A stretch of DNA of 32,332 nucleotides from Bacteroidales bacterium. Lineage in GTDB: Bacteria > Bacteroidota > Bacteroidia > Bacteroidales > UBA932. The stretch is from positions 1 to 32,332 of the forward strand of contig JABUTN010000006.1 of the NCBI GenBank assembly GCA_021443665.1, in the 5' to 3' direction. Below, piece after piece: positions 3,512 to 28,362 of this stretch (the stretch's first letter is position 1; every line of letters begins with the position of its first letter). Made by a program: the position numbers and the translations under genes. A model generated the notes under the pieces. It saw nothing but the letters and a program-made list of their open reading frames with translations, was not told the origin of the DNA and did not search any database.

Positions 3512-4612
3512 ATGAAACGTGTCATCAAGTATTTTCTGCTGATTTTGGCCTTTGCCGTGTTCATCGGCACCTTCCTGTATCTGTACTCCAAGTCAAAGCC
3601 CAAGGAACTGCGCTACGAGGAAGTGACGGCTTCGGTGATGGACATCAACCGCACCACAGTCATAACGGGCAAGATAGAGCCGCGCAACGAGGTGAATGTC
3701 AAGCCTCAGATCAATGGTATCATTGCGGAACTCTACAAGGAGGCCGGCCAGACCGTAAAACAGGGCGATGTGATTGCCAAACTGAAGGTGATTCCCGATA
3801 TGAACTCCCTCAGTTCCGCCCAGAGCCGTGTGCGCCTTGCCGAGCTGAACCTCAAGCAGGCCGAGGTCAATTACAGCCGCGAGAAGGCCCTCTATGACCA
3901 GAAACTCGTGAGCGCGGACGAATATGACAAGATTCGTCAGGCGCTCGAGCAGGCGAAGGAGGAACTCATAGGTGCGCAGGATGCTCTGGAAGTGATTCGG
4001 GACGGCGTTTCATCCTCGAACGCGACATCTTCAAGCACCCTTGTGCGTTCGACCATCACCGGCCTTATCCTCGATGTGCCCGTGAAGGTGGGAAACTCCG
4101 TGATACAGGCGAACACGATGAATGACGGTACCACGGTGGCCACCGTAGCCGATATGAACGACCTGATTTTTGACGGCTACATAGATGAAACCGAGGTGGG
4201 CAACCTCCGTGAGGGTATGGTAGTCCTCATTACCATAGGTGCAATCCCGGAATACCGCGCAGAGGCGGTGCTTGAGTTCATCTCGCCCAAGGCGGTGGAG
4301 AACAACGGCGCCAACCAGTTCCAGATCAAGGCGGCAGTACGTCCCTCAGAGGGGCAGACCATACGCTCGGGCTACAGCGCCAATGCCGAAATAGTGCTCA
4401 AAAGCGTCAAACAGGTCCTGACCCTTCCCGAAAGCACTCTCGAATTCAGCGGCGATTCGACCTTTGTGTATCGCAAGGGAGCGGAGGGTAAGTATGAGCG
4501 CAGGCATATAAGCACGGGTCTGAGTGACGGCATCAACATAGAGGTGCTCAGCGGAGTGGATTCGACAGACGTGATCCGCGGGGCGCAGATAATTGAGGAC
4601 AACAGCAAATAA
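3512..4612 (+). CDS. Periplasmic adaptor (membrane fusion protein) of the MacB-type pump
   Basis: This protein should bridge the inner-membrane permeases and the outer-membrane channel. An N-terminal membrane anchor (residues 7-25, a leucine- and phenylalanine-rich stretch) is followed by a biotinyl-lipoyl half (VNVKPQINGIIAELY, then EAGQTVKQGDVIAKL). An alpha-helical hairpin follows (about 90-155, rich in E, Q, K and A), then the second lipoyl half (TGLILDVPVKVGN) and beta-barrel and membrane-proximal domains. The 366-residue length is usual for MacA/HlyD-like adaptors. No lipobox is present, in contrast to the second adaptor in this window. It sits between the permease pair and the TolC-like gene, whose start is nine bases after its stop. 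Confidence 0.9.
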   Translation: MKRVIKYFLLILAFAVFIGTFLYLYSKSKPKELRYEEVTASVMDINRTTVITGKIEPRNEVNVKPQINGIIAELYKEAGQTVKQGDVIAKLKVIPDMNSLSSAQSRVRLAELNLKQAEVNYSREKALYDQKLVSADEYDKIRQALEQAKEELIGAQDALEVIRDGVSSSNATSSSTLVRSTITGLILDVPVKVGNSVIQANTMNDGTTVATVADMNDLIFDGYIDETEVGNLREGMVVLITIGAIPEYRAEAVLEFISPKAVENNGANQFQIKAAVRPSEGQTIRSGYSANAEIVLKSVKQVLTLPESTLEFSGDSTFVYRKGAEGKYERRHISTGLSDGINIEVLSGVDSTDVIRGAQIIEDNSK

Positions 4613-19011: not shown

Positions 19012-21066
19012 TTACTGAGCCTGAGTTATTATGGTCTGGGAGTCTTTGCTGTCCACCGTTATGGCTGCGCCCTTGTGGATGTTGCCCTTCAGGATTTCGC
19101 GTGAGAGCTGGTTCACCAGTTCCTTCTGTATCAGCCTCTTCACCGGACGGGCTCCATATTCGGGATCATAGCCGTTCTCGACCATATCGTCCTCGAAGGC
19201 GGGGGTGTAGCGGAGTTCCACATTCTCTTGCTCGAGTTTGGCGCGGAGAAGTTCCATCTGGATGCGCACTATCAGCCTGATGTCCTCCTTGCCGAGCTGC
19301 TGGAAGCGGATGATTTCGTCTATGCGGTTGAGGAACTCGGGACGCATCCTGCTGCGAAGCTCCTCCTCCTTGATGTTGGAGGTCATCACGAGGATGGTGT
19401 TTTTGAAATCCACGGTGCGGCCCTTGTTGTCGGTCAGACGGCCGTCATCAAGCACCTGCAGGAGGATGTTGAACACATCCGGGTGGGCCTTCTCTATCTC
19501 ATCGAGCAGGATGACGGAGTAGGGCTTGCGCCTTACGGCCTCGGTGAGTTGGCCGCCCTCGTCATAACCCACATAGCCCGGAGGCGCTCCCACGAGCCGG
19601 CTGGAACTGAAACTCTCTTGATATTCGCTCATATCGATGCGTGTCATCATACTCTCGTCATTGAACAGAAACTCCGCGAGTGCCTTTGCAAGTTCGGTCT
19701 TGCCGACACCGGTGCTTCCCAGGAAAAGGAAGGAACCGATGGGGCGGTGCTCGTTGGCCAGACCTGCCCTGCTGCGGCGCACGGCGTCACAGACTGCCTC
19801 CACGGCCTTGTCCTGCCCTACCACGCGCTTGTGCAGTTCTTCTTCCATACGCAGGAGCTTGTCCTTTTCGCTTTCGAGCATCCTGCCCACAGGAATGCCT
19901 GTCCATCGCGCCACAATTTCCGCGATGTCCTCGGGAGTCACTGACTCGGTGATGATGGGCTTCTCAATCTTGGACTGGCGGCTCTGGAGTTCCTTCACGC
20001 GCTCCTCGGCCTGACTGATGCGGCCGTAGCGGATTTCCGCCACTTTGCCGTAGTCTCCCTCGCGTTCTGCGACGGCGGCCTGCTGCTTGTAGTCTTCTAT
20101 CTTGGCCCTGAGCGTGTTCAGTTCGGCGATTATGCCTTTCTCGTTGTTCCAGCGTTCGTTCAGCTGCGCGAGCTCGTCCTTGGCCTCCTTGAGCTGCTGG
20201 TCGATTTTCTCGCTCTTGAGGGATGTGCCTTCGCGTTTGATGGCCTCCTTCTCAATCTCCAGCTGGGCAATCCTGGAATTGAGTTCGGCTATGGGCTCGG
20301 GCACGGAGTTCATCTCCAGACGCAGTTTGGAGGCGGCCTCATCCACAAGGTCTATGGCTTTGTCCGGGAGGAAACGGTTGTTGATGTAGCGGTGGCTGAG
20401 GTTCACGGCCGCGATGAGGGCATCGTCCTCGATGCTGACGCGGTGGTGGTTCTCATAACGCTCTTTCAGGCCTCGCATAATGGCTATGGACTCGGCGGGG
20501 GAGGGCTCGTCCACCATCACTTTCTGGAATCTGCGCTCAAGGGCCTTGTCCTGCTCGAAATACTTCTGGTATTCGTCAAGGGTGGTGGACCCGATGGTGC
20601 GCAATTCTCCTCGGGCAAGGGCGGGCTTGAGGATGTTGGAGGCATCCATTGCGCCTCCGCTGCGGCCCGCACCCACAAGGGTGTGAATCTCATCTATGAA
20701 AAGGATTATGCGGCCGTCACTCTCCACCACTTCCTTCACCACTCCCTTGAGGCGCTCCTCAAATTCGCCCTGGAACTTGGCTCCGGCGATGAGGGCTCCC
20801 ATATCGAGAGAATAAATCTTGCGGTCCTTAAGGTTTTCAGGCACCTGGCCGTTGATGATTTTTGCAGCGATGCCTTCCGATATGGCTGTCTTGCCCACTC
20901 CCGGTTCACCGACCAGGATGGGGTTGTTCTTCGTCCTGCGGCTCAGAATCTGGAGCACGCGGCGGATTTCGTCGTCCCTTCCGATTACGGGATCGAGTTT
21001 GCCTTTGCCGGCGGCCTCATTGAGATCGACGGCGTACTTGTTCAAAAATTCGTAGTTTTTATTCAT
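19012..21066 (-). CDS. clpB: ClpB-type disaggregase lacking the N-terminal domain
   Basis: ClpB is a hexameric AAA+ chaperone that threads and solubilises aggregated proteins with DnaK. AAA1 has Walker A GEPGVGKT (residues 53-60) and Walker B ILFIDEIH; the arginine-finger region is [10 protein letters not shown] full coiled-coil middle domain follows (about 245-370, rich in E, K, Q and L), which distinguishes it from ClpA and ClpX. AAA2 has GSTGVGKTE and [10 protein letters not shown]. The usual Clp_N domain of about 140 residues is missing: the protein begins at the linker just before AAA1. About 20-25 residues between TSNI and RPEFLNRID are also shorter than in E. coli ClpB. I chose the ATG at 21066 because AGGAGG lies just upstream; an in-frame ATG at 21114 would add 16 residues. 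No N-domain sequence is found upstream, where the paralog operon begins. Confidence 0.88.
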
Positions 21067-21075: not shown

Positions 21076-21136
21076 ATGGGCAAACATTATGCCGACTGAC
21101 AAAATGGCAGACATTGTGTGTTTTTTTACAACATAT

Positions 21137-21166
21137 TTTGATTATTCCGTTTTTTTTTTTTCTTTG
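21137..21166 (+). promoter_or_regulatory. Likely promoter of the DUF2589-like operon
   Basis: TTTG at 21137-21140 is followed after 18 bases by TTTCTTTG (21159-21166), a degenerate -7 box lacking the TA. The leader to the ATG at 21205 would be about 35 bases. The spacer and the first bases of the -7 box consist largely of a 12-T run, so slippage would change promoter spacing. Confidence 0.4.
21150..21161. repeat. Homopolymeric 12-T tract in the operon promoter
   Basis: Twelve consecutive T on the plus strand lie between the probable -33 and -7 elements. No hairpin precedes it on either strand in the position expected for a terminator. Confidence 0.8.
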
Positions 21167-21204
21167 TAGAGTTAAGACTTTAACCCCCAAATAACTATAA
21201 AACT

Positions 21205-21834
21205 ATGAGTGCAAACAGCAACACCATTCAGGCTTTGAATGGAATCCCTTTTGACAATCTGATCGGAAGTCCCCTCAACGCGTGCATCAAGGCACAGGCA
21301 CAGGCAGCGGAAACCACAGTATCCTTCATTCAGGAAGTCGGCTTGAAAGCCAAAAAAGACTCTGATGGAGAAGATACCGATGACAGAGAGGCCGTTTATG
21401 TGACATTCTCTTACACTGTAAAAGGCCAGGAAGTCAAACTCTCAGTTCCCTTGCTTACCATCATCCCTATTCCCTACATCGCCATTGAGTATGTTGACAT
21501 CAAATTCTTGTGTAAGGTAAATGCCATCGAGGTGGACAAGGACGAGTATGAGAATAATGATGAAAAGAATGAGAATGAGAATACCTCTAAAAGCAAAAAG
21601 TCCTGGTGGTCAAAAAACAAGACATCGACCACGATGCAGACCTCTGTTTCCTCCAAGAGTTCATCCAAGGGAACCCAGGAATCCCAGTACAGCATTGAAT
21701 CTACCATAGATGTGCACGTGCATGCCAAGTCTGACGGAATGCCTGCAGGTATGGCGAAGGTGCTTGAGATGCTGAACAGTTCCATCGAGTATATGCACAC
21801 TTCTGCTACTGCAACGACAGGTGAGAGTAAATAA
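21205..21834 (+). CDS. DUF2589-like paralog A
   Basis: This is the first and shortest of the core paralogs (209 residues). Residues 14-46 form an amphipathic helix with NLIGSPLNACIKAQAQAA. A beta-strand and motif VPLLTIIPIPYIAI (81-94) follow, then an acidic and serine/lysine-rich linker (about 105-150). The third motif is IESTIDVHVH with MPAGMAKVLEMLN (179-191). From memory this matches the uncharacterised DUF2589 family; I did not verify it by profile search. It has no signal peptide or membrane segment, so it should be cytoplasmic. Unlike paralogs B, C, D and H it lacks a C-terminal beta domain and ends shortly after the third motif. It shares an 80-base near-identical segment with paralog B. 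Confidence 0.8.
   Translation: MSANSNTIQALNGIPFDNLIGSPLNACIKAQAQAAETTVSFIQEVGLKAKKDSDGEDTDDREAVYVTFSYTVKGQEVKLSVPLLTIIPIPYIAIEYVDIKFLCKVNAIEVDKDEYENNDEKNENENTSKSKKSWWSKNKTSTTMQTSVSSKSSSKGTQESQYSIESTIDVHVHAKSDGMPAGMAKVLEMLNSSIEYMHTSATATTGESK
21688..21767 (+). repeat. Direct repeat copy 1, shared by paralogs A and B
   Basis: This 80-base segment, in frame in paralog A, is about 80 percent identical by eye to 22320-22399 in paralog B. It begins tacagcattgaat and ends aaggtgcttga in both copies, and encodes the YSIESTIDV and MPAGMAKVLE region. Confidence 0.8.
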
Positions 21835-21840
21835 AATTTA
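21832..21840 (+). promoter_or_regulatory. AAAATTT leader element before paralog B
   Basis: TAAAATTTA lies five bases before the ATG at 21846. Related A/T-rich elements precede paralog D, the zinc-ribbon gene and paralog H, and may take the place of a Shine-Dalgarno site. Confidence 0.3.
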
Positions 21841-21845
21841 TTGGT

Positions 21846-22694
21846 ATGAGCAGCGTTGCAGACAAGGCGATAGGCGCGCTCAGTGCCATCCCCTTTCATG
21901 ACCTCATAGGTGGGCCTTTGAATGCCTGCATACAGGCCCAAAGCCAGGCGGCAATGTCAACCGTCTCCTTTATCCAGAGTGTGGGACTTACCACTACCGT
22001 TGATGATAAGGGAAACGAAAAGTATGATGCCGTATATGTCCATTTCTCTTTCATTCAGGCCGGCAAGAAACTCAACATCAGTGTTCCTCTGCTTACCATT
22101 GTCCCCATACCCTATATCGCCATAAGTACAATCGATATAGCGTTCAAGGCAACGGTGACCGGTGTGGACACTACCTCTGATACCAGCAGTGAGAGTTACG
22201 AGAAGAGCACTAATGAGGAGAAAAAAAGCGGGAAATTAGGGTGGTTCAAGGCTTCGTCAAGCAAGATGACCACTTCCATCTCTTCGAAAAGGGATTCCAA
22301 GTCAACCCAGGAGTCATCCTACAGCATTGAATCCACCATAGACGTGAATGTGCACGCCGGTCAGGACTCTATGCCTGCAGGTATGGCAAAGGTGCTTGAA
22401 TTGTTGAATTCTGCGGTAAGCACAAGCAGCCCGGACGGAGAACTTACAGTGAGCGATACCAATCTGAAGATCACTGACAAGACAGTCCTGCTGACGGCTT
22501 CATATAAGAATCCCAAAGGCTTGCTTGAACCTGAGAAGATCGTGATTTCTCCGGAACCCCAGGCGAAAAACGTAAACAAGACCGCCGGCATTATGGAGTA
22601 CACTATCAGTCAGGCAAATACTTACAAGATTTCCGTTACTGACAAAGATAATGGCAGTGATGTCGGTACTGTAGAAGTTGTTGTTAAAAAATAA
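21846..22694 (+). CDS. DUF2589-like paralog B with C-terminal beta domain
   Basis: This 282-residue paralog is close to A in the core: LIGGPLNACIQAQSQAA (about 20-36), VPLLTIVPIPYIAI, then a serine/lysine-rich linker, and ESTIDVNVH with MPAGMAKVLELLN. After the third motif there is an extra segment of about 85 residues, rich in alternating V, T, S and I and ending VGTVEVVVKK. It reads like a small immunoglobulin-like beta sandwich. It has no signal peptide. It starts 11 bases after paralog A. The fold of the C-terminal part is inferred from pattern only. Confidence 0.8.
   Translation: MSSVADKAIGALSAIPFHDLIGGPLNACIQAQSQAAMSTVSFIQSVGLTTTVDDKGNEKYDAVYVHFSFIQAGKKLNISVPLLTIVPIPYIAISTIDIAFKATVTGVDTTSDTSSESYEKSTNEEKKSGKLGWFKASSSKMTTSISSKRDSKSTQESSYSIESTIDVNVHAGQDSMPAGMAKVLELLNSAVSTSSPDGELTVSDTNLKITDKTVLLTASYKNPKGLLEPEKIVISPEPQAKNVNKTAGIMEYTISQANTYKISVTDKDNGSDVGTVEVVVKK
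22320..22399 (+). repeat. Direct repeat copy 2, shared by paralogs A and B
   Basis: This is the counterpart of 21688-21767. It has the same length and reading frame, with about 15 mismatches counted by eye. It supports a fairly recent duplication or gene conversion of this part. Confidence 0.8.
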
Positions 22695-22706
22695 GAGTGA
22701 ACGCTT

Positions 22707-23531
22707 ATGGCAGAAGTAGATACCAGTGCGGCAAATGTTGCCAATAACGCACTGCAGGCACTGCCCTTCGGGCAGATTATAGGCGGTCCCCTGAAAGCGT
22801 GCATCGATGCACAGACCGAGGCTGCGCTCAGCACCTGGAACTATATCAACAATGTGGGCATCCAAAAGAATGAAGACGATGTGCCCACGGCTGTGTATGT
22901 GAAGTTCTGTTACCGCAGCAACGGACGGTATTGTTCGCTTTCCATCCCTCTTCTCACCCTTGTTCCCATTCCGTACATAGCCATAAAGGATATCGACATC
23001 GCTTTCAAGGCCAACATTTCTGCCGCCTCCTCGGTGGCGGAGACAAAGTCGGAATCTCTGTCTGTCGGTTTCGGCATGAAGACGAAGGCCGGTTTCCATA
23101 TGGGCGTCGCTTCGGCCTCTATGGAAATGAACGTGAATGTGTCCAGCAAGAAAGACTCTACGGCAACACGGGACTCCAAGTACAGTGTGGAATACACTAT
23201 GGATGTGGCTGTGAAGGCCGGACAGGAAGATATGCCGGCGGGAATGCTCAAGGTGCTTGAATTGCTCAACAATTCGATAGACACCGTGGATACAAACGGT
23301 GAACTGAGCATCTCGGCTTCCTCTGTCAGCCTCGTTGACGGCAAGGCTTCCGTGTTTGTAATATATAAGAACCCTGACGGGATTTATGAACCCAAGAAAA
23401 TCACCGCTCCATCCGGTGCCACGAAAGAGGAGAAAGGCAACGGAGCAATGCTGACTTTCGCTACAGCAGGCAGTTACGAGGTGACAATCAGCGGCAATAA
23501 AGAACTGAAGGAAAAAATTGAAGTAAAGTAG
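22707..23531 (+). CDS. DUF2589-like paralog C with C-terminal beta domain
   Basis: The 274-residue protein has the same plan: LPFGQIIGGPLKACIDAQTEAA near residue 18, VYVKFCYRS followed by SIPLLTLVPIPYIAIKDIDIAFKA, then MNVNVSSKKDSTATRDSKY and MPAGMLKVLELLN. The final 85 or so residues are a beta-rich segment ending LKEKIEVK. The region between the motifs contains glycine and phenylalanine (GFGMKTKAGFHMGVA) where A and B carry a lysine/tryptophan-rich linker. No signal peptide. It is 12 bases downstream of paralog B and 10 bases upstream of paralog D. Confidence 0.8.
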   Translation: MAEVDTSAANVANNALQALPFGQIIGGPLKACIDAQTEAALSTWNYINNVGIQKNEDDVPTAVYVKFCYRSNGRYCSLSIPLLTLVPIPYIAIKDIDIAFKANISAASSVAETKSESLSVGFGMKTKAGFHMGVASASMEMNVNVSSKKDSTATRDSKYSVEYTMDVAVKAGQEDMPAGMLKVLELLNNSIDTVDTNGELSISASSVSLVDGKASVFVIYKNPDGIYEPKKITAPSGATKEEKGNGAMLTFATAGSYEVTISGNKELKEKIEVK

Positions 23532-23540
23532 AATTTTAAT
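23531..23540 (+). promoter_or_regulatory. AATTTTA leader element before paralog D
   Basis: GAATTTTAAT lies directly before the ATG at 23542 and is one of four similar A/T-rich elements at gene starts in this operon. Confidence 0.25.
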
Positions 23541-23541
23541 T

Positions 23542-24861
23542 ATGGCAGCTGATAAAAAAATAAATATGGATGAATTGAAGGGCCTGTCCAAAGATGATCT
23601 GAAGGCCAAAGGGAAAGATTATCTCTCAAAACTGAGTGATGATCAGTGGAAGGAACTGGGTACGAGTCTGAATGAGCTGTTCCCGGCTGAAGAGGTGATA
23701 AAGCCTGAAGTAAAACCTGAAGTGATTTCCGAAGAAGAGAAGAGATTCAATTATGAGCAGGAGTCCTTCAACTGTGTGAACAATGCCTACAAGGAGATGT
23801 CCGCCCAGACAACGGTCGCCTCAGCATCAGAACTGAATAAAGAACTGTCTTCGGTGACTGCTGACTCGTCAATCCAGGCAGCGGCTCTCAACACTCTGTC
23901 ATCCTTGCCCTTTGACAAACTTATAGGAGGTCCGCTTGAGGCAGCCATCGCAGCCCAGAGCAAGGCCGCCAAGTCCACTCTGCAGTACATTCAGGCTGTG
24001 GGTATGAGAAACGACAAAGTCATTGTGGTCAGTTTTGAATACGTGGTCAATGGCGTAATCAAGAAGTTCCAGATACCCCTGTTGACGCTCGTCCCGATAC
24101 CCAACTTTGCCATCAAGACAATGGATTACACCTTCAAGGTGAAGGTTAATGCGGAATCAAAAGCATCTGCCTCAATGTCAACTTCCATTGCAAACACCTG
24201 GAATGCCGGTTTCAATGCGTCTGCTCCCGCTGCAGCGGCCTCTGCTCCCAAGGCTGCGGAGACAAAAGCTGCGGAGGCGAAGCCTGCGGAAAACCTGACT
24301 GAGGAGAAAAAAAAGGAGGAGGCTGCAAAACAGGTCCAGGCGGCAAAGGACCAGCAGACGCAAAAGGCAGACGAAAAGAAGGCCCAGAGCGCGGAAGCCG
24401 CATCCAAGGCTGCAGAAACGGCCGCAAGCACCAAGTCAAGCGGTATGTCCCTCAATGCCACAATTTCCACTAAGAAAGACTCATTGGCAAGCCGTGAGTC
24501 CAAATACAGCGTGGAGGCGAACATGGACATCACCATTTCTGCCGGCCAGGATGACCTGCCTGCAGGCGTGCTCACTCTCCTGGAGGTGCTCAACAAGTCG
24601 AACGCCATATTCGATCCGGACGGAGAACTCACGGTTTCACCCTCAGACACCATTACTCTTGGCACCAATGGCAAGGCTACGGCAATCGTGCAGTATCTGA
24701 ATGAAGAGGGAGTATATGACCCCACAAGTGTTGTCTGCTCGGATGCCGGATGCACCAAGGATATCATAAGCCGCGAGTCCGTGAGACTTACCTTCTCACA
24801 AGCCGGTGTCTATACGGTTACGGCCGGACTCCAGGTTGCATCAATCACCGTAAAAGAATAA
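23542..24861 (+). CDS. DUF2589-like paralog D with helical extension and Ala/Lys-rich insert
   Basis: This is the longest core paralog without a fused enzyme-like module (439 residues). The first 115 or so residues are a charged, helical-looking extension (for example MDELKGLSKDDLKAKGKDYL). The core begins with LPFDKLIGGPLEAAIAAQ near 121-140, where alanine replaces the cysteine seen in the other paralogs. VPIPNFAIKTMDYTFKVKV and DLPAGVLTLLEVLN follow. Between them lies a long insert (about 227-300) of alanine, lysine, glutamate and glutamine, likely a helical coiled coil or flexible spacer. The last 80 or so residues are beta-rich and end VASITVKE. It could act as a scaffold or spacer subunit; this is inferred only from architecture. 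Confidence 0.78.
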   Translation: MAADKKINMDELKGLSKDDLKAKGKDYLSKLSDDQWKELGTSLNELFPAEEVIKPEVKPEVISEEEKRFNYEQESFNCVNNAYKEMSAQTTVASASELNKELSSVTADSSIQAAALNTLSSLPFDKLIGGPLEAAIAAQSKAAKSTLQYIQAVGMRNDKVIVVSFEYVVNGVIKKFQIPLLTLVPIPNFAIKTMDYTFKVKVNAESKASASMSTSIANTWNAGFNASAPAAAASAPKAAETKAAEAKPAENLTEEKKKEEAAKQVQAAKDQQTQKADEKKAQSAEAASKAAETAASTKSSGMSLNATISTKKDSLASRESKYSVEANMDITISAGQDDLPAGVLTLLEVLNKSNAIFDPDGELTVSPSDTITLGTNGKATAIVQYLNEEGVYDPTSVVCSDAGCTKDIISRESVRLTFSQAGVYTVTAGLQVASITVKE

Positions 24862-24867
24862 CAGGCT

Positions 24868-25458
24868 ATGGCAGAGTCCGATCTTCAATCACTTGGCTTG
24901 GTAGAGTTCCTGCAGGATACCCTTGAGTCCACCCTGCTGGCAGATGCAAAGAGTGTTGACAGTCTTTTGGATACACTCAGCGAATATGCGAATGAGGCCC
25001 CTCTGGAGTTTGCGGTTTCCGATTCTTCAGGGGAGCAGCACGTGGTCAAGATTCCCAAACTTGCAATATCACCGATGCCCTTGCTGCGAATCCAGGAGGC
25101 GGATTTCGAGTTTTCCGGGCAGATAGAGATCTCATCGGCGGAAACAAAGGAAACTGCATCAGGTGCTGCTGCCGTTAAATCTGTTGCAGGAGCCAAGACT
25201 TTAGCCGCCAAAAGAGTCGCATTGCCTGCAACACAGATGCTGACTTCTGCCCTCAGGCTTCAAGAACTTAAAAGCAGGATAAGGATTACACCCACGAGCA
25301 CGAGTACTACTTCAAACGACGAGTCCAAGAAAACGATTGCGATGAAGATGCACGTCAAACTCGGTCAGGCGGACATCCCGGCAGGCCTTACCTCGCTTTT
25401 GCAGATAGCGGCAAGCAATCTGCAGATAGACAACCAGAAACCTGAAAGTGGAGAGTAG
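24868..25458 (+). CDS. Divergent DUF2589-like relative E
   Basis: This 196-residue protein keeps the outline of the family. PKLAISPMPLLRIQEADFEF corresponds to the second motif, and GQADIPAGLTSLLQIA corresponds to the third. The first motif and the conserved cysteine are lost; the N terminus reads VEFLQDTLESTLLADAKS. No C-terminal beta domain is present. The gene starts six bases after paralog D and overlaps relative F by 11 bases. I regard it as an eroded or specialised family member. Confidence 0.7.
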   Translation: MAESDLQSLGLVEFLQDTLESTLLADAKSVDSLLDTLSEYANEAPLEFAVSDSSGEQHVVKIPKLAISPMPLLRIQEADFEFSGQIEISSAETKETASGAAAVKSVAGAKTLAAKRVALPATQMLTSALRLQELKSRIRITPTSTSTTSNDESKKTIAMKMHVKLGQADIPAGLTSLLQIAASNLQIDNQKPESGE

Positions 25459-25909
25459 CGAGCAGACAATATCAATGTTGCTGATGTCTATGCTGGGTTC
25501 GCTGGCACAGCTGGACCGGCTTACCGCGGACACGCATTGCCGGCAGATAGAGACCCTGTTGTCGGAAGATTTTGTCTGCAGTATGACGGATGCGGCGGGA
25601 AACACTGAGAACGCTACTTTGCCTGCGCTTGCCCTTATGCCGCCCTCGCTCCTTTATCTGTCAGAGTTTTCGATAGAGATAAAGGGGAACGAACAGTTGG
25701 GCGGCATCGGGGAAAGGTTGCGTTCAGCGGACGCTGAGGACCTTTCGCAGGAGGGCAGGGAATTGCGGCAGCTCATTGCGGAACTCGGATTCAATGCCGA
25801 CTTCATAGTGAGCGGGAGCGGGAATGACACGACCTTGAATTTCGTTGTATATAAGGACTCGTCAACGATGACCGACTACATCGAGAACTGGCTTGAAGAA
25901 ATGGAATGA
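25448..25909 (+). CDS. Highly divergent relative F
   Basis: This 153-residue protein shows only PALALMPPSLLYLSEFSIEI as a likely counterpart of the second motif; the third motif is absent. The N terminus (LLMSMLGSLAQLDRLTADTHC) is hydrophobic but does not look like a signal peptide. I chose the GTG at 25448, which overlaps the end of gene E; an ATG at 25475 is the alternative. The overlap indicates translational coupling. Its family membership rests on position and one motif, so it is uncertain. Confidence 0.55.
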   Translation: MESSEQTISMLLMSMLGSLAQLDRLTADTHCRQIETLLSEDFVCSMTDAAGNTENATLPALALMPPSLLYLSEFSIEIKGNEQLGGIGERLRSADAEDLSQEGRELRQLIAELGFNADFIVSGSGNDTTLNFVVYKDSSTMTDYIENWLEEME

Positions 25910-25920
25910 AAGCAAATACC

Positions 25921-25930
25921 TTTAAAATTT
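25921..25930 (+). promoter_or_regulatory. AAAATTT leader element before the zinc-ribbon gene
   Basis: TTTAAAATTT lies seven bases before the ATG at 25938. The 28-base gap before this gene is the longest in the operon. Confidence 0.3.
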
Positions 25931-25937
25931 AACTGAA

Positions 25938-26153
25938 ATGGCACAACAAACACCCGGAATGAAATGCCCCCAGTGCGGGATGTTCATTCCAACTACGATA
26001 AACGATATTCTGACACAACCCGCTCTCATCTGCCCTTATTGCGGGCTCTGCCTGACCATCAACCGTGAGGAATCCAGGCGTGCGATGGAGATACTCAAGG
26101 ATGTGAACGAGGCTCAGCAGAATCTCAACGAAACTGCCAATCGTTACAAGTAA
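25938..26153 (+). CDS. Small zinc-ribbon protein
   Basis: This is a 71-residue protein with CPQC (C10, C13) and CPYC (C32, C35) knuckles plus C38, the pattern of a zinc ribbon. A helical, polar C-terminal tail (about 43-71, rich in E, R and Q) follows. It does not resemble the DUF2589-like core. It lies between relative F and paralog H, 12 bases from the latter, so it is a fixed member of the operon. It could bind nucleic acid or act as a structural clamp; the function is unknown. Confidence 0.75.
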   Translation: MAQQTPGMKCPQCGMFIPTTINDILTQPALICPYCGLCLTINREESRRAMEILKDVNEAQQNLNETANRYK

Positions 26154-26160
26154 AATTTTA
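26151..26160 (+). promoter_or_regulatory. AAAATTT leader element before paralog H
   Basis: TAAAATTTTA begins at the stop codon of the zinc-ribbon gene and ends five bases before the ATG at 26166. It is the clearest copy of the A/T-rich element. Confidence 0.3.
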
Positions 26161-26165
26161 TCAAG

Positions 26166-26888
26166 ATGGCTATAGAAAACAATGATATCAAAAGTCTTGC
26201 GAATGCGGCGAAGGCTTTGCCTCTCCAGTCCCTTATAGGCGGGCCGCTTGAGGCCTGTGTGCAGGCTCAGGCCCAGGCCGCGGAAGCCACGCAGCGGTAT
26301 ATCTGGGGGACGGGCTTCAGACCGGTCGATGCTGCAAACACAGAGTTTGAGGCGGTGACCGTCAGTTTCTCCTTTACCCAGAACGGGGTCCTGAAAATGC
26401 TGACAGTGCCGCTCCTGACGATTGTTCCCATACCCTATATGCAGATTGATACCGTCAAGATACGGTTCAATGCGGATATGTCCGTTGACAATAACGGCAA
26501 TCTGATGGCAAAGTATTCCACCGATACGGCCACCATCGAGAAGCAGAGCGTGTCCAAATACTCCCTGCACAACAACCTTAACGTGGAGGTGGTCGCTTCC
26601 GGCCATTCCATGCCCGAAGGAGTGAACAAGATGCTCGAATTGCTCGGCAACTGTATGGAGATAAAGGACATTCTGCCTATTTCCGCACGTGTTATTTATC
26701 TGGATGAGAAAACAAAGTCGGCCATTGTATATGTGGGAGATGTTGAGAGCGAGGATAAACTGACATGTGATGGCGCCTATAAGAAGTCGTGGAACAAATA
26801 TAAGGGAATGGCTATGCTGGAGTTCAGGGAAAAGGGCGATTTCGTGATTACTTCAGGAGGCCGCAGCGCAGTTGTGACTGTAAAATAA
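26166..26888 (+). CDS. DUF2589-like paralog H with C-terminal beta domain
   Basis: This 240-residue paralog has LPLQSLIGGPLEACVQAQAQAA (about 18-39), VPLLTIVPIPYMQIDTVKIRF (about 81-101), then VEVVASGHSMPEGVNKMLELLGN (about 140-162). The glutamate in MPEG replaces the alanine of MPAG. A beta-rich C-terminal segment ends SGGRSAVVTVK. No signal peptide. It begins 12 bases after the zinc-ribbon gene and ends seven bases before gene I, with which it shares a V-T-V-S-F-S-F-x-Q-N-G-x-L strand. It is probably the closest core relative of gene I. Confidence 0.8.
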   Translation: MAIENNDIKSLANAAKALPLQSLIGGPLEACVQAQAQAAEATQRYIWGTGFRPVDAANTEFEAVTVSFSFTQNGVLKMLTVPLLTIVPIPYMQIDTVKIRFNADMSVDNNGNLMAKYSTDTATIEKQSVSKYSLHNNLNVEVVASGHSMPEGVNKMLELLGNCMEIKDILPISARVIYLDEKTKSAIVYVGDVESEDKLTCDGAYKKSWNKYKGMAMLEFREKGDFVITSGGRSAVVTVK

Positions 26889-26895
26889 TCTTAAG

Positions 26896-28362
26896 TTGAA
26901 GCAGGCTGATCCACAAGCGATAAAAGACCTTATCGGTATGCCTGTCAATTCCTGCCTGCAAGCGCAGAAAAGGATAGGCCGTACTGTTGTGCGTTATATC
27001 CAGGATACCGGTTTCAGACGCTCGATGGAGTTTGCCAATCTGTGTGAAGTGGTGACCGTGAGTTTCAGCTTCCGGCAGAATGGCCTGCTGCGCGTTTTGA
27101 CGGTTCCCCTGCTTTCGCTTGTGCCTATGCCTATGCTGCAGATAGACCAGGCCAATCTGAAATTTATCGCCAACCTCGAAGGACGGGAAAACGGCCATCT
27201 GCAGGCCAGATACGGCAATAGTACTGGCAATGGTTGGGGCTATAGTTCGGAAACCAGGTATGCGGGGCAGATGAAGATAAATGTCTCGCTCCGGCGCTAT
27301 GGCATTACCAGCGGTCTGGGCAAATTGCTGGATCTGGTCAACAACCAATGCATAAATTCAACACCGCTCGACCCTTCCAAACTTCCGAAGATAGACTGGG
27401 AGCAACGCAGGGCCGTGGGTGAAGTGGTGATGGGCATCCGTGATGCGAACGAACGGAATATGTCGGCGATACTCTCCGCCCTTGAGAAGAACGCACCGCT
27501 GGAGCGCGTCGAGCCTGAAGAGGTTGTGGAGGAGGTTCCGGAGGAAGTTGCAATAGACCTCTCAGCCCTGCCATACGATATCGCCGACCCGGAGGATCTG
27601 GTGCTTCTGGAGACAGAGGCTATGGACATATTCTCCTTCCTTGGCTCTCTTGCCGGCAAGGGGAATGGCAAGGCCGAATTGAACAGTGCCATCAGGAAAA
27701 TCTTTGGCTCTCTGGGTTATGGAACTGTCATCGACCTTGAGAAGGACAGCGATGATGCCGTTCTTATGTTTTATGTCAGGAGACCGATGTTCCTCAGGTG
27801 CGTCGCGATAGAGAGGTCGGATGTCAAACGCAAGGTCGCTGTCATCCGGAAGTCCCCTTACGATGTGCTTACAGTAGAGAGGTCTCTTGTATTCAGCAAT
27901 CCCCGTTTGGTCGAGAGCATGCTGGCGGCAAAACTGAGATTATGCACTCGGGCGGCGTATCCCGGCAAATTCAGCGTCGTGGAGCTGCAGAAGGAAGTGG
28001 CGGAACTGTTCCTTCGTGCATATACTGCCACAGGAGCGCAGGAGGCGGATTATTACATCGGCGTAGTCAATGAGAACAAGTTGGTCCAGGTAATGACCGT
28101 CAGGAGGCTTGGCAATGAAGGGGATTATGAACTTATGCAGCTTGCCACCCGGCACAGATACAGCGTGAGAAACGGATTGTTCAGCATGCTGAGGTTTTTC
28201 ACCAAGATTAGCGGATGGATTAGCCCGAACTGCATAATCGTTTACAACGAACTGAACACCAGCAGTGGCAGCATCCTCGACGCCCTGGGCTTCAAGCGTC
28301 AGGATAACGCCCCCATCCCCTCTGACCGATTCCCCTTCGGCGCCGAATGCTGGCGTCTCTGA
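26896..28362 (+). CDS. DUF2589-like core fused to a nuclease-like and GNAT-like C-terminal module
   Basis: This is the last gene of the operon (488 residues). The start is a TTG at 26896; the first ATG (residue 15) would cut into the conserved IGMPVNSCLQAQ helix. Residues 1-155 keep the family motifs (VPLLSLVPMPMLQI, SGLGKLLDLVNN). An acidic linker (about 205-218) leads to a region at about 235-345 that recalls the PD-(D/E)XK/Vsr-like part of some homing and phage endonucleases. In FYVRRPMFLRCVAIE the glutamate is kept but the usual first acid is absent. Residues 384-488 (YYIGVVNENKLVQVMTV, YSVRNGLFSMLRFFTK, PNCIIVYNE, ILDALGFKR) resemble the GNAT-like tail found after such nucleases. The similarity is by eye and from memory. 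It may be an effector or a domesticated, catalytically reduced nuclease. Confidence 0.75.
   Translation: MKQADPQAIKDLIGMPVNSCLQAQKRIGRTVVRYIQDTGFRRSMEFANLCEVVTVSFSFRQNGLLRVLTVPLLSLVPMPMLQIDQANLKFIANLEGRENGHLQARYGNSTGNGWGYSSETRYAGQMKINVSLRRYGITSGLGKLLDLVNNQCINSTPLDPSKLPKIDWEQRRAVGEVVMGIRDANERNMSAILSALEKNAPLERVEPEEVVEEVPEEVAIDLSALPYDIADPEDLVLLETEAMDIFSFLGSLAGKGNGKAELNSAIRKIFGSLGYGTVIDLEKDSDDAVLMFYVRRPMFLRCVAIERSDVKRKVAVIRKSPYDVLTVERSLVFSNPRLVESMLAAKLRLCTRAAYPGKFSVVELQKEVAELFLRAYTATGAQEADYYIGVVNENKLVQVMTVRRLGNEGDYELMQLATRHRYSVRNGLFSMLRFFTKISGWISPNCIIVYNELNTSSGSILDALGFKRQDNAPIPSDRFPFGAECWRL

Follow-up and report, generated by a model that had tools for sequence, protein, structure and literature searches.

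A run of 12 T residues upstream of a row of DUF2589 genes in a Bacteroidales genome is probably the unusually long A/T-tract spacer of a primary-sigma (TAnnTTTG-type) promoter serving these genes. The run lies at 21150–21161 on the forward strand of the window (the whole 32,332-nt stretch of DNA analysed here), exactly where an earlier note had reported it, and occupies most of the putative promoter's spacer. A gap of 43 bp separates it from the start of a nine-ORF unit at 21205. This co-directional unit (21205–28362, forward strand) has gaps of <30 bp or overlaps between its ORFs, all of which are intact. Seven of the nine (D1, D2, D3, D4, D5, D7, and D8) match PF11655 (DUF2589), and the paralog operon claimed downstream of the tract is therefore real. 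The genes of the unit are as follows.

21205–21834, forward: D1, DUF2589 protein, 209 aa, first gene of the unit
21846–22694, forward: D2, DUF2589 protein, 282 aa
22707–23531, forward: D3, DUF2589 protein, 274 aa
23542–24861, forward: D4, DUF2589 protein, 439 aa, with an N-terminal extension
24868–25458, forward: D5, partial DUF2589 match, 196 aa
25448–25909, forward: D6, 153 aa, no family match
25938–26153, forward: small CxxC zinc-ribbon-like protein, 71 aa, weak matches only
26166–26888, forward: D7, DUF2589 protein, 240 aa
26896–28362, forward: D8, DUF2589 protein, 488 aa

D1, 55% identical to D2, appears to be an additional, D2-related copy; other Bacteroidales also have D2, D3, and D4 in a row. 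Rows of divergent DUF2589 paralogs together with a small CxxC protein were also seen in Bacteroidales and Akkermansia contigs. A structure search revealed no solved relative, the AlphaFold model of a DUF2589 protein was poor (pLDDT 59.6, pTM 0.40), and a fold search with this low-confidence model returned no match (best E 2.5). In a defence library, the DUF2589 proteins had no match and the 71-aa protein matched weakly.

Within the assembly of 1,786,855 bases (1.79 Mb), T12 is the sole A/T run of at least 10 on either strand. The same holds for the window, where the only other A/T runs of at least 8 are two A8 runs (59–66 and 24307–24314), in agreement with the earlier remark that the window has no comparable tract in a promoter; none of 100 dinucleotide shuffles equalled its count of overlapping T10 matches. 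A/T runs of length 5, 6, 7, 8, and 9 numbered 1125, 317, 115, 35, and 7, respectively, in a 978-kb sample of the host genome, with T12 on top, and T12 exceeds every spacer tract in this sample, the next longest being 9. Geometric extrapolation of the run-length decay gave 4.8–9.4 runs of at least 10 and 0.3–1.6 runs of at least 12 expected per genome. Long runs are, if anything, scarce in the host genome, and by the latter figure a single 12-base run is not unlikely. Since errors in length arise easily in long homopolymers and the draft metagenome-type assembly is in 44 contigs and 96.28% complete, the true tract length could differ from 12 through a homopolymer error. We consider this very improbable, however, as the flanks of T12 are normal unique sequence and similar T10–T16 tracts occur in many assemblies of the family.

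To score promoter sites, a two-box model was trained on 274 upstream regions of the host genome; the same regions were scored, and its numbers are therefore indicative only. The best intergenic site was at 21159, which ranked 50 of 274 upstream regions and above all mononucleotide shuffles, which preserve base composition alone. Its elements are the following.

21136–21140, forward: T-rich −33 region TTTTG, in which either TTTG (spacing 18) or TTTT (spacing 19) can be read
21159–21166, forward: putative −7 box TTTCTTTG (host consensus TAnnTTTG), overlapping the last three T of the tract

The promoter-like site that scores best ahead of the DUF2589 unit thus holds the tract in its spacer, as had been claimed. 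The 18-base spacing proposed in the earlier note corresponds to a possible register, with TTTG (21137–21140) as the −33 element and 11.2 bits against 11.3 bits for the shuffles' 95th percentile, but the TTTT register (21136–21139) at spacing 19 outscores it with 15.7 bits. In the upstream regions used for training, TTG ended 19 or 20 bp before TAnnTTTG most often (7 and 10 of 80 sites, respectively). TAnnTTTG itself was the dominant −7 motif 15–75 nt before ATG, with 79 forward and 57 reverse occurrences in the 274 upstream regions, many of which are divergent; the 15 other dinucleotides ahead of nnTTTG gave 2–21 forward occurrences each. The box TTTCTTTG agrees with the consensus at five of six positions and departs from it at the conserved A, which is missing because T12 runs into the box, so that the last three T of the tract stand inside it (TTTC) and T replaces the usual A. 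In the model, this costs about 3 bits, and TTnnTTTG displayed no clear enrichment before genes (21 forward, 18 reverse). Positioned 46 nt before the ATG, the box falls inside the genome's peak bin of 25–50 nt. Judged by its letters, the 21159 site is promoter-like, short of a consensus member of the Bacteroidota primary-sigma class.

The TT in place of TA could also mean that the −7 box has decayed, that the tract reflects neutral drift, and that the unit is transcribed weakly or from elsewhere. A relative with a D1-like first gene (L023) carries TTTTTTCTTATCTTTG at the place of the window's TTTTTTTTTTTTCTTTG, which would fit an A lost by substitution. Nevertheless, such a loss of function appears quite unlikely: the 21159 site is still the region's best and stands above all shuffles, no better alternative was found when the intergenic region before the unit was scanned, and expression has probably been kept because all nine ORFs are intact. 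Other placements of the tract were considered and rejected. A −7 box at 21134 (TATTTTG) would put the tract in the 5′ leader, but TA.TTTG was unenriched before genes (8 forward, 5 reverse), and the site mismatches the Flavobacterium psychrophilum variant TAnnTTGY (PMC9723704) by an A after the G. A terminator was dismissed since the genes on either side point away from each other and, by eye, no G+C-rich stem is seen ahead of the tract.

A/T runs in the host genome are biased towards promoter spacers. Counting a T-run or, on the opposite strand, an A-run in the spacer, we observed runs of 4, 5, 6, 7, and 8 or more just upstream of TAnnTTTG in 74 of 4064, 52 of 1125, 24 of 317, 17 of 115, and 14 of 43 cases (978 kb), compared with 63, 32, 11, 3, and 0 in the control orientation. 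The share of runs with a spacer-placed −7 box therefore climbs with run length; T12 is counted among the 43 runs and outside the 14, for want of the −7 A. Runs of at least 6 with a downstream box end 1–3 bp before it in 23 of 42 cases. Across the family, the pattern TTTG..T10+..TTTG was found in 57 of 299 genomes at about 78 places (some overlapping) vs 28 for the reversed pattern; these sums were totalled by hand, and hits require T10 or longer, which misses shortened tracts. Inspection of 30 of the T10+ loci disclosed TAnnTTTG in 21 and a nearby gene start in 19, the latter defined as an ORF that begins no more than 150 bp away and spans at least 80 aa, or at least 60 aa where the locus end truncates it. 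Spacers of the 21 TAnnTTTG loci measured 17 (2), 18 (3), 19 (5), 20 (4), 22 (2), 23 (1), and 11–12 bp (4). A/T-rich spacers have also been described in Bacteroides thetaiotaomicron (PMC7366714). Taken by sequence, A/T tracts in the spacer are ordinary promoter design in the host genome and its family. Because one third of the host's long A/T runs sit in spacer position, it is unsafe to class such runs as contingency loci by sight when they occur in Bacteroidales spacers.

We infer from these observations that, in a genome whose spacers are A/T-rich and often carry an uninterrupted stretch of T or A up to 1–3 bp from the −7 box, the run at the DUF2589 promoter may have grown to 12 and into the box, so that the usual A is now T. 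Transcription would start near 21170–21175, leaving a leader of about 30–35 nt. The run would act as A/T-tract DNA, through its shape or easy melting, and would set the spacing to 18–19, while one-T changes would bring modest tuning of strength over evolutionary time and leave the operon unswitched. Among the closest known systems is the Bacteroidota primary-sigma (sigma-ABfr) promoter, with its AT-rich spacer, as presented for B. thetaiotaomicron (PMC7366714) and F. psychrophilum (PMC9723704). The window differs from it in its pure T12 spacer tract and in the T at the conserved −7 A.

The DUF2589 operons of 16 relatives were scanned for promoters at spacings of 17–22; of the first 15 loci, all entered the scan except four from Akkermansia, another phylum, and of the loci found later, only L024–L026, L150, and L151 did. 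Eight relatives had a strong −7 box, with spacers of 19 bp in L011, L012, L013, and L023 and 20 bp in L014, L024, L025, and L026. Their spacer runs were T9, T8, A7, A6, T5, or at most 2; none reaches 10, and a long tract is thus not conserved at the same promoter in these eight operons. Operons with a T8, T9, A7, or A6 run in a 19-bp spacer share the layout seen at T12. The −7 boxes of L020, L150, and L151 were weak. No convincing site preceded the operons of L010, L015, L018, and L019 in the scan, and in L009 the nearest 180 nt held none; farther upstream, a CTTG..20..TAAATTTG site was seen by eye. The congeners G001 and G002 yielded no D1 homolog, and searches of phages and of viral contigs (with a flexible-gap pattern and with protein) gave no match to the region.

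According to the earlier note, slipped-strand mispairing at T12 would shift the −33/−7 spacing and turn the DUF2589 unit on or off, as in porA or opc. A homopolymer of at least about 9 in a promoter spacer, as in porA/opc-type loci, is present here, the run is the only A/T run of at least 10 in the genome, and T13–T14 would yield the 19–20 bp spacing kept in relatives. One-T differences were also seen at comparable tracts of the family. In G150 (T11) and G196 (T10), the promoter is otherwise identical and the spacer measures 19 and 18, respectively. In the congener G002, two almost identical upstream copies stand 1.6 kb apart, and over 180 aligned columns they differ solely in having T12 or T13, both tracts likewise running into a TTnnTTTG box; this difference could be an assembly error. 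The two G002 tracts (L098, A12 at 2127–2138 and A13 at 3742–3754, T on the gene strand) precede lipoprotein-like genes that begin to diverge some 40 codons in. In contrast, T10 was constant before an rfbD-like gene in three genomes of one genus (six more were without an exact-flank match) and before another gene in two genomes (37 more without one). Searches for orthologous tracts in three genera matched only genomes already known and required exact flanks, which biases them to near relatives. L011 (T8) and L012 (T9) differ by a substitution, with spacing fixed at 19 in both. Since two other family tracts differ by one T, slow, graded change of tract length in the host family is plausible, as far as these comparisons indicate.

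An on/off effect of one or two T found no support. The two-box model scored T11, T12, T13, T14, and T15 at 14.9, 15.7, 16.7, 17.0, and 14.0 bits, respectively, and this indicative prediction is of a small, graded rather than all-or-none effect across T11–T14, the −33 region being rich in T as well. Whatever the tract length, the −7 box stays without its A, and slippage could alter the spacing only. The host genome encodes two MutS_V proteins, MutS1-sized (886 aa) and MutS2-sized (858 aa), with the subtype assigned by size only; the presence of the former argues against a switch, as do the DUF2589 product, which is not recognisable as a surface antigen, and the related operons, which keep a 19–20 bp spacer with no long tract. 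The slippage target of the earlier note thus finds parallels in the one-T changes of the family, while the switch built on it is unlikely. Bacteroidales are known mainly for DNA-inversion switches; in this order, a true switch working by homopolymer promoter phase variation would be unusual, and it would bear on the role of DUF2589 proteins.

The porA promoter tract is a G tract. Meningococcal porA, fetA, and opc promoters carry a homopolymer between −35 and −10 (PMC2791445), and opc tracts vary from 11C to 12C/14C (PMC6389960). These loci resemble the window in that slippage in a spacer homopolymer would change the spacing, but their tracts are C or G and length variants with changed expression have been observed, whereas the window is known from a single T12 sequence. 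The poly-T of the Helicobacter pylori sabA promoter ranges from 13 to 19 T (PMC2715451). It shares with the window a T tract in the promoter region, but sabA encodes an adhesin, and cloning and AFLP have proven that its tract varies in length. The meningococcal nspA promoter has a 5A/6A tract adjoining the −10 box, in which one base alters expression; the authors of that study found no phase variation and excluded spacing (PMC6389960). That tract is likewise A/T and next to the box, but short. More speculatively, and improbable in our view, the spacer homopolymers of the family could be a widespread slippage-prone tuning device, in which spacing of 18, 19, or 20 resets operon strength heritably and the DUF2589 copy, the longest and most mutable in its genome, stands one or two T short of its relatives' spacing.

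By the usual rules, the poly-G/C runs of the host genome would be better slippage candidates than T12. They measure 11 at L063:5293–5303 (C9), 10 at L132:5188–5197 (C26), and 9 at L067:6441–6449 (C41); the last, a run of G, falls within an ORF (5374–6813 of L067), and those of 11 and 10 fall between ORFs.

On the other side of the intergenic region is a divergent gene.

19012–21066, reverse: ClpB-like ATPase without the ClpB N-domain, its start at 21066 inferred from the protein sequence

It is the only ClpB-like gene found in the host genome. Among the same-family relatives searched, short ClpB-like frames (714–761 aa) are common and frames of 863–888 aa occur in some members; outside the family the frames are 863–888 aa. 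The tract was rejected as a shared clpB promoter element, as the clpB upstream regions of 11 relatives were without an A/T run of at least 10, with runs of 7–8 within 400 bp in three of the 11. Sigma-54 promoters have a GG-N10-GC layout. The same layout is seen before the clpB-like gene of the window at 21080–21093 on the reverse strand (GGCATAATGTTTGC), where it would leave almost no leader, and similar GGCA..TTTGC or TTGC sites precede clpB in L190, L191, L192, and L194.
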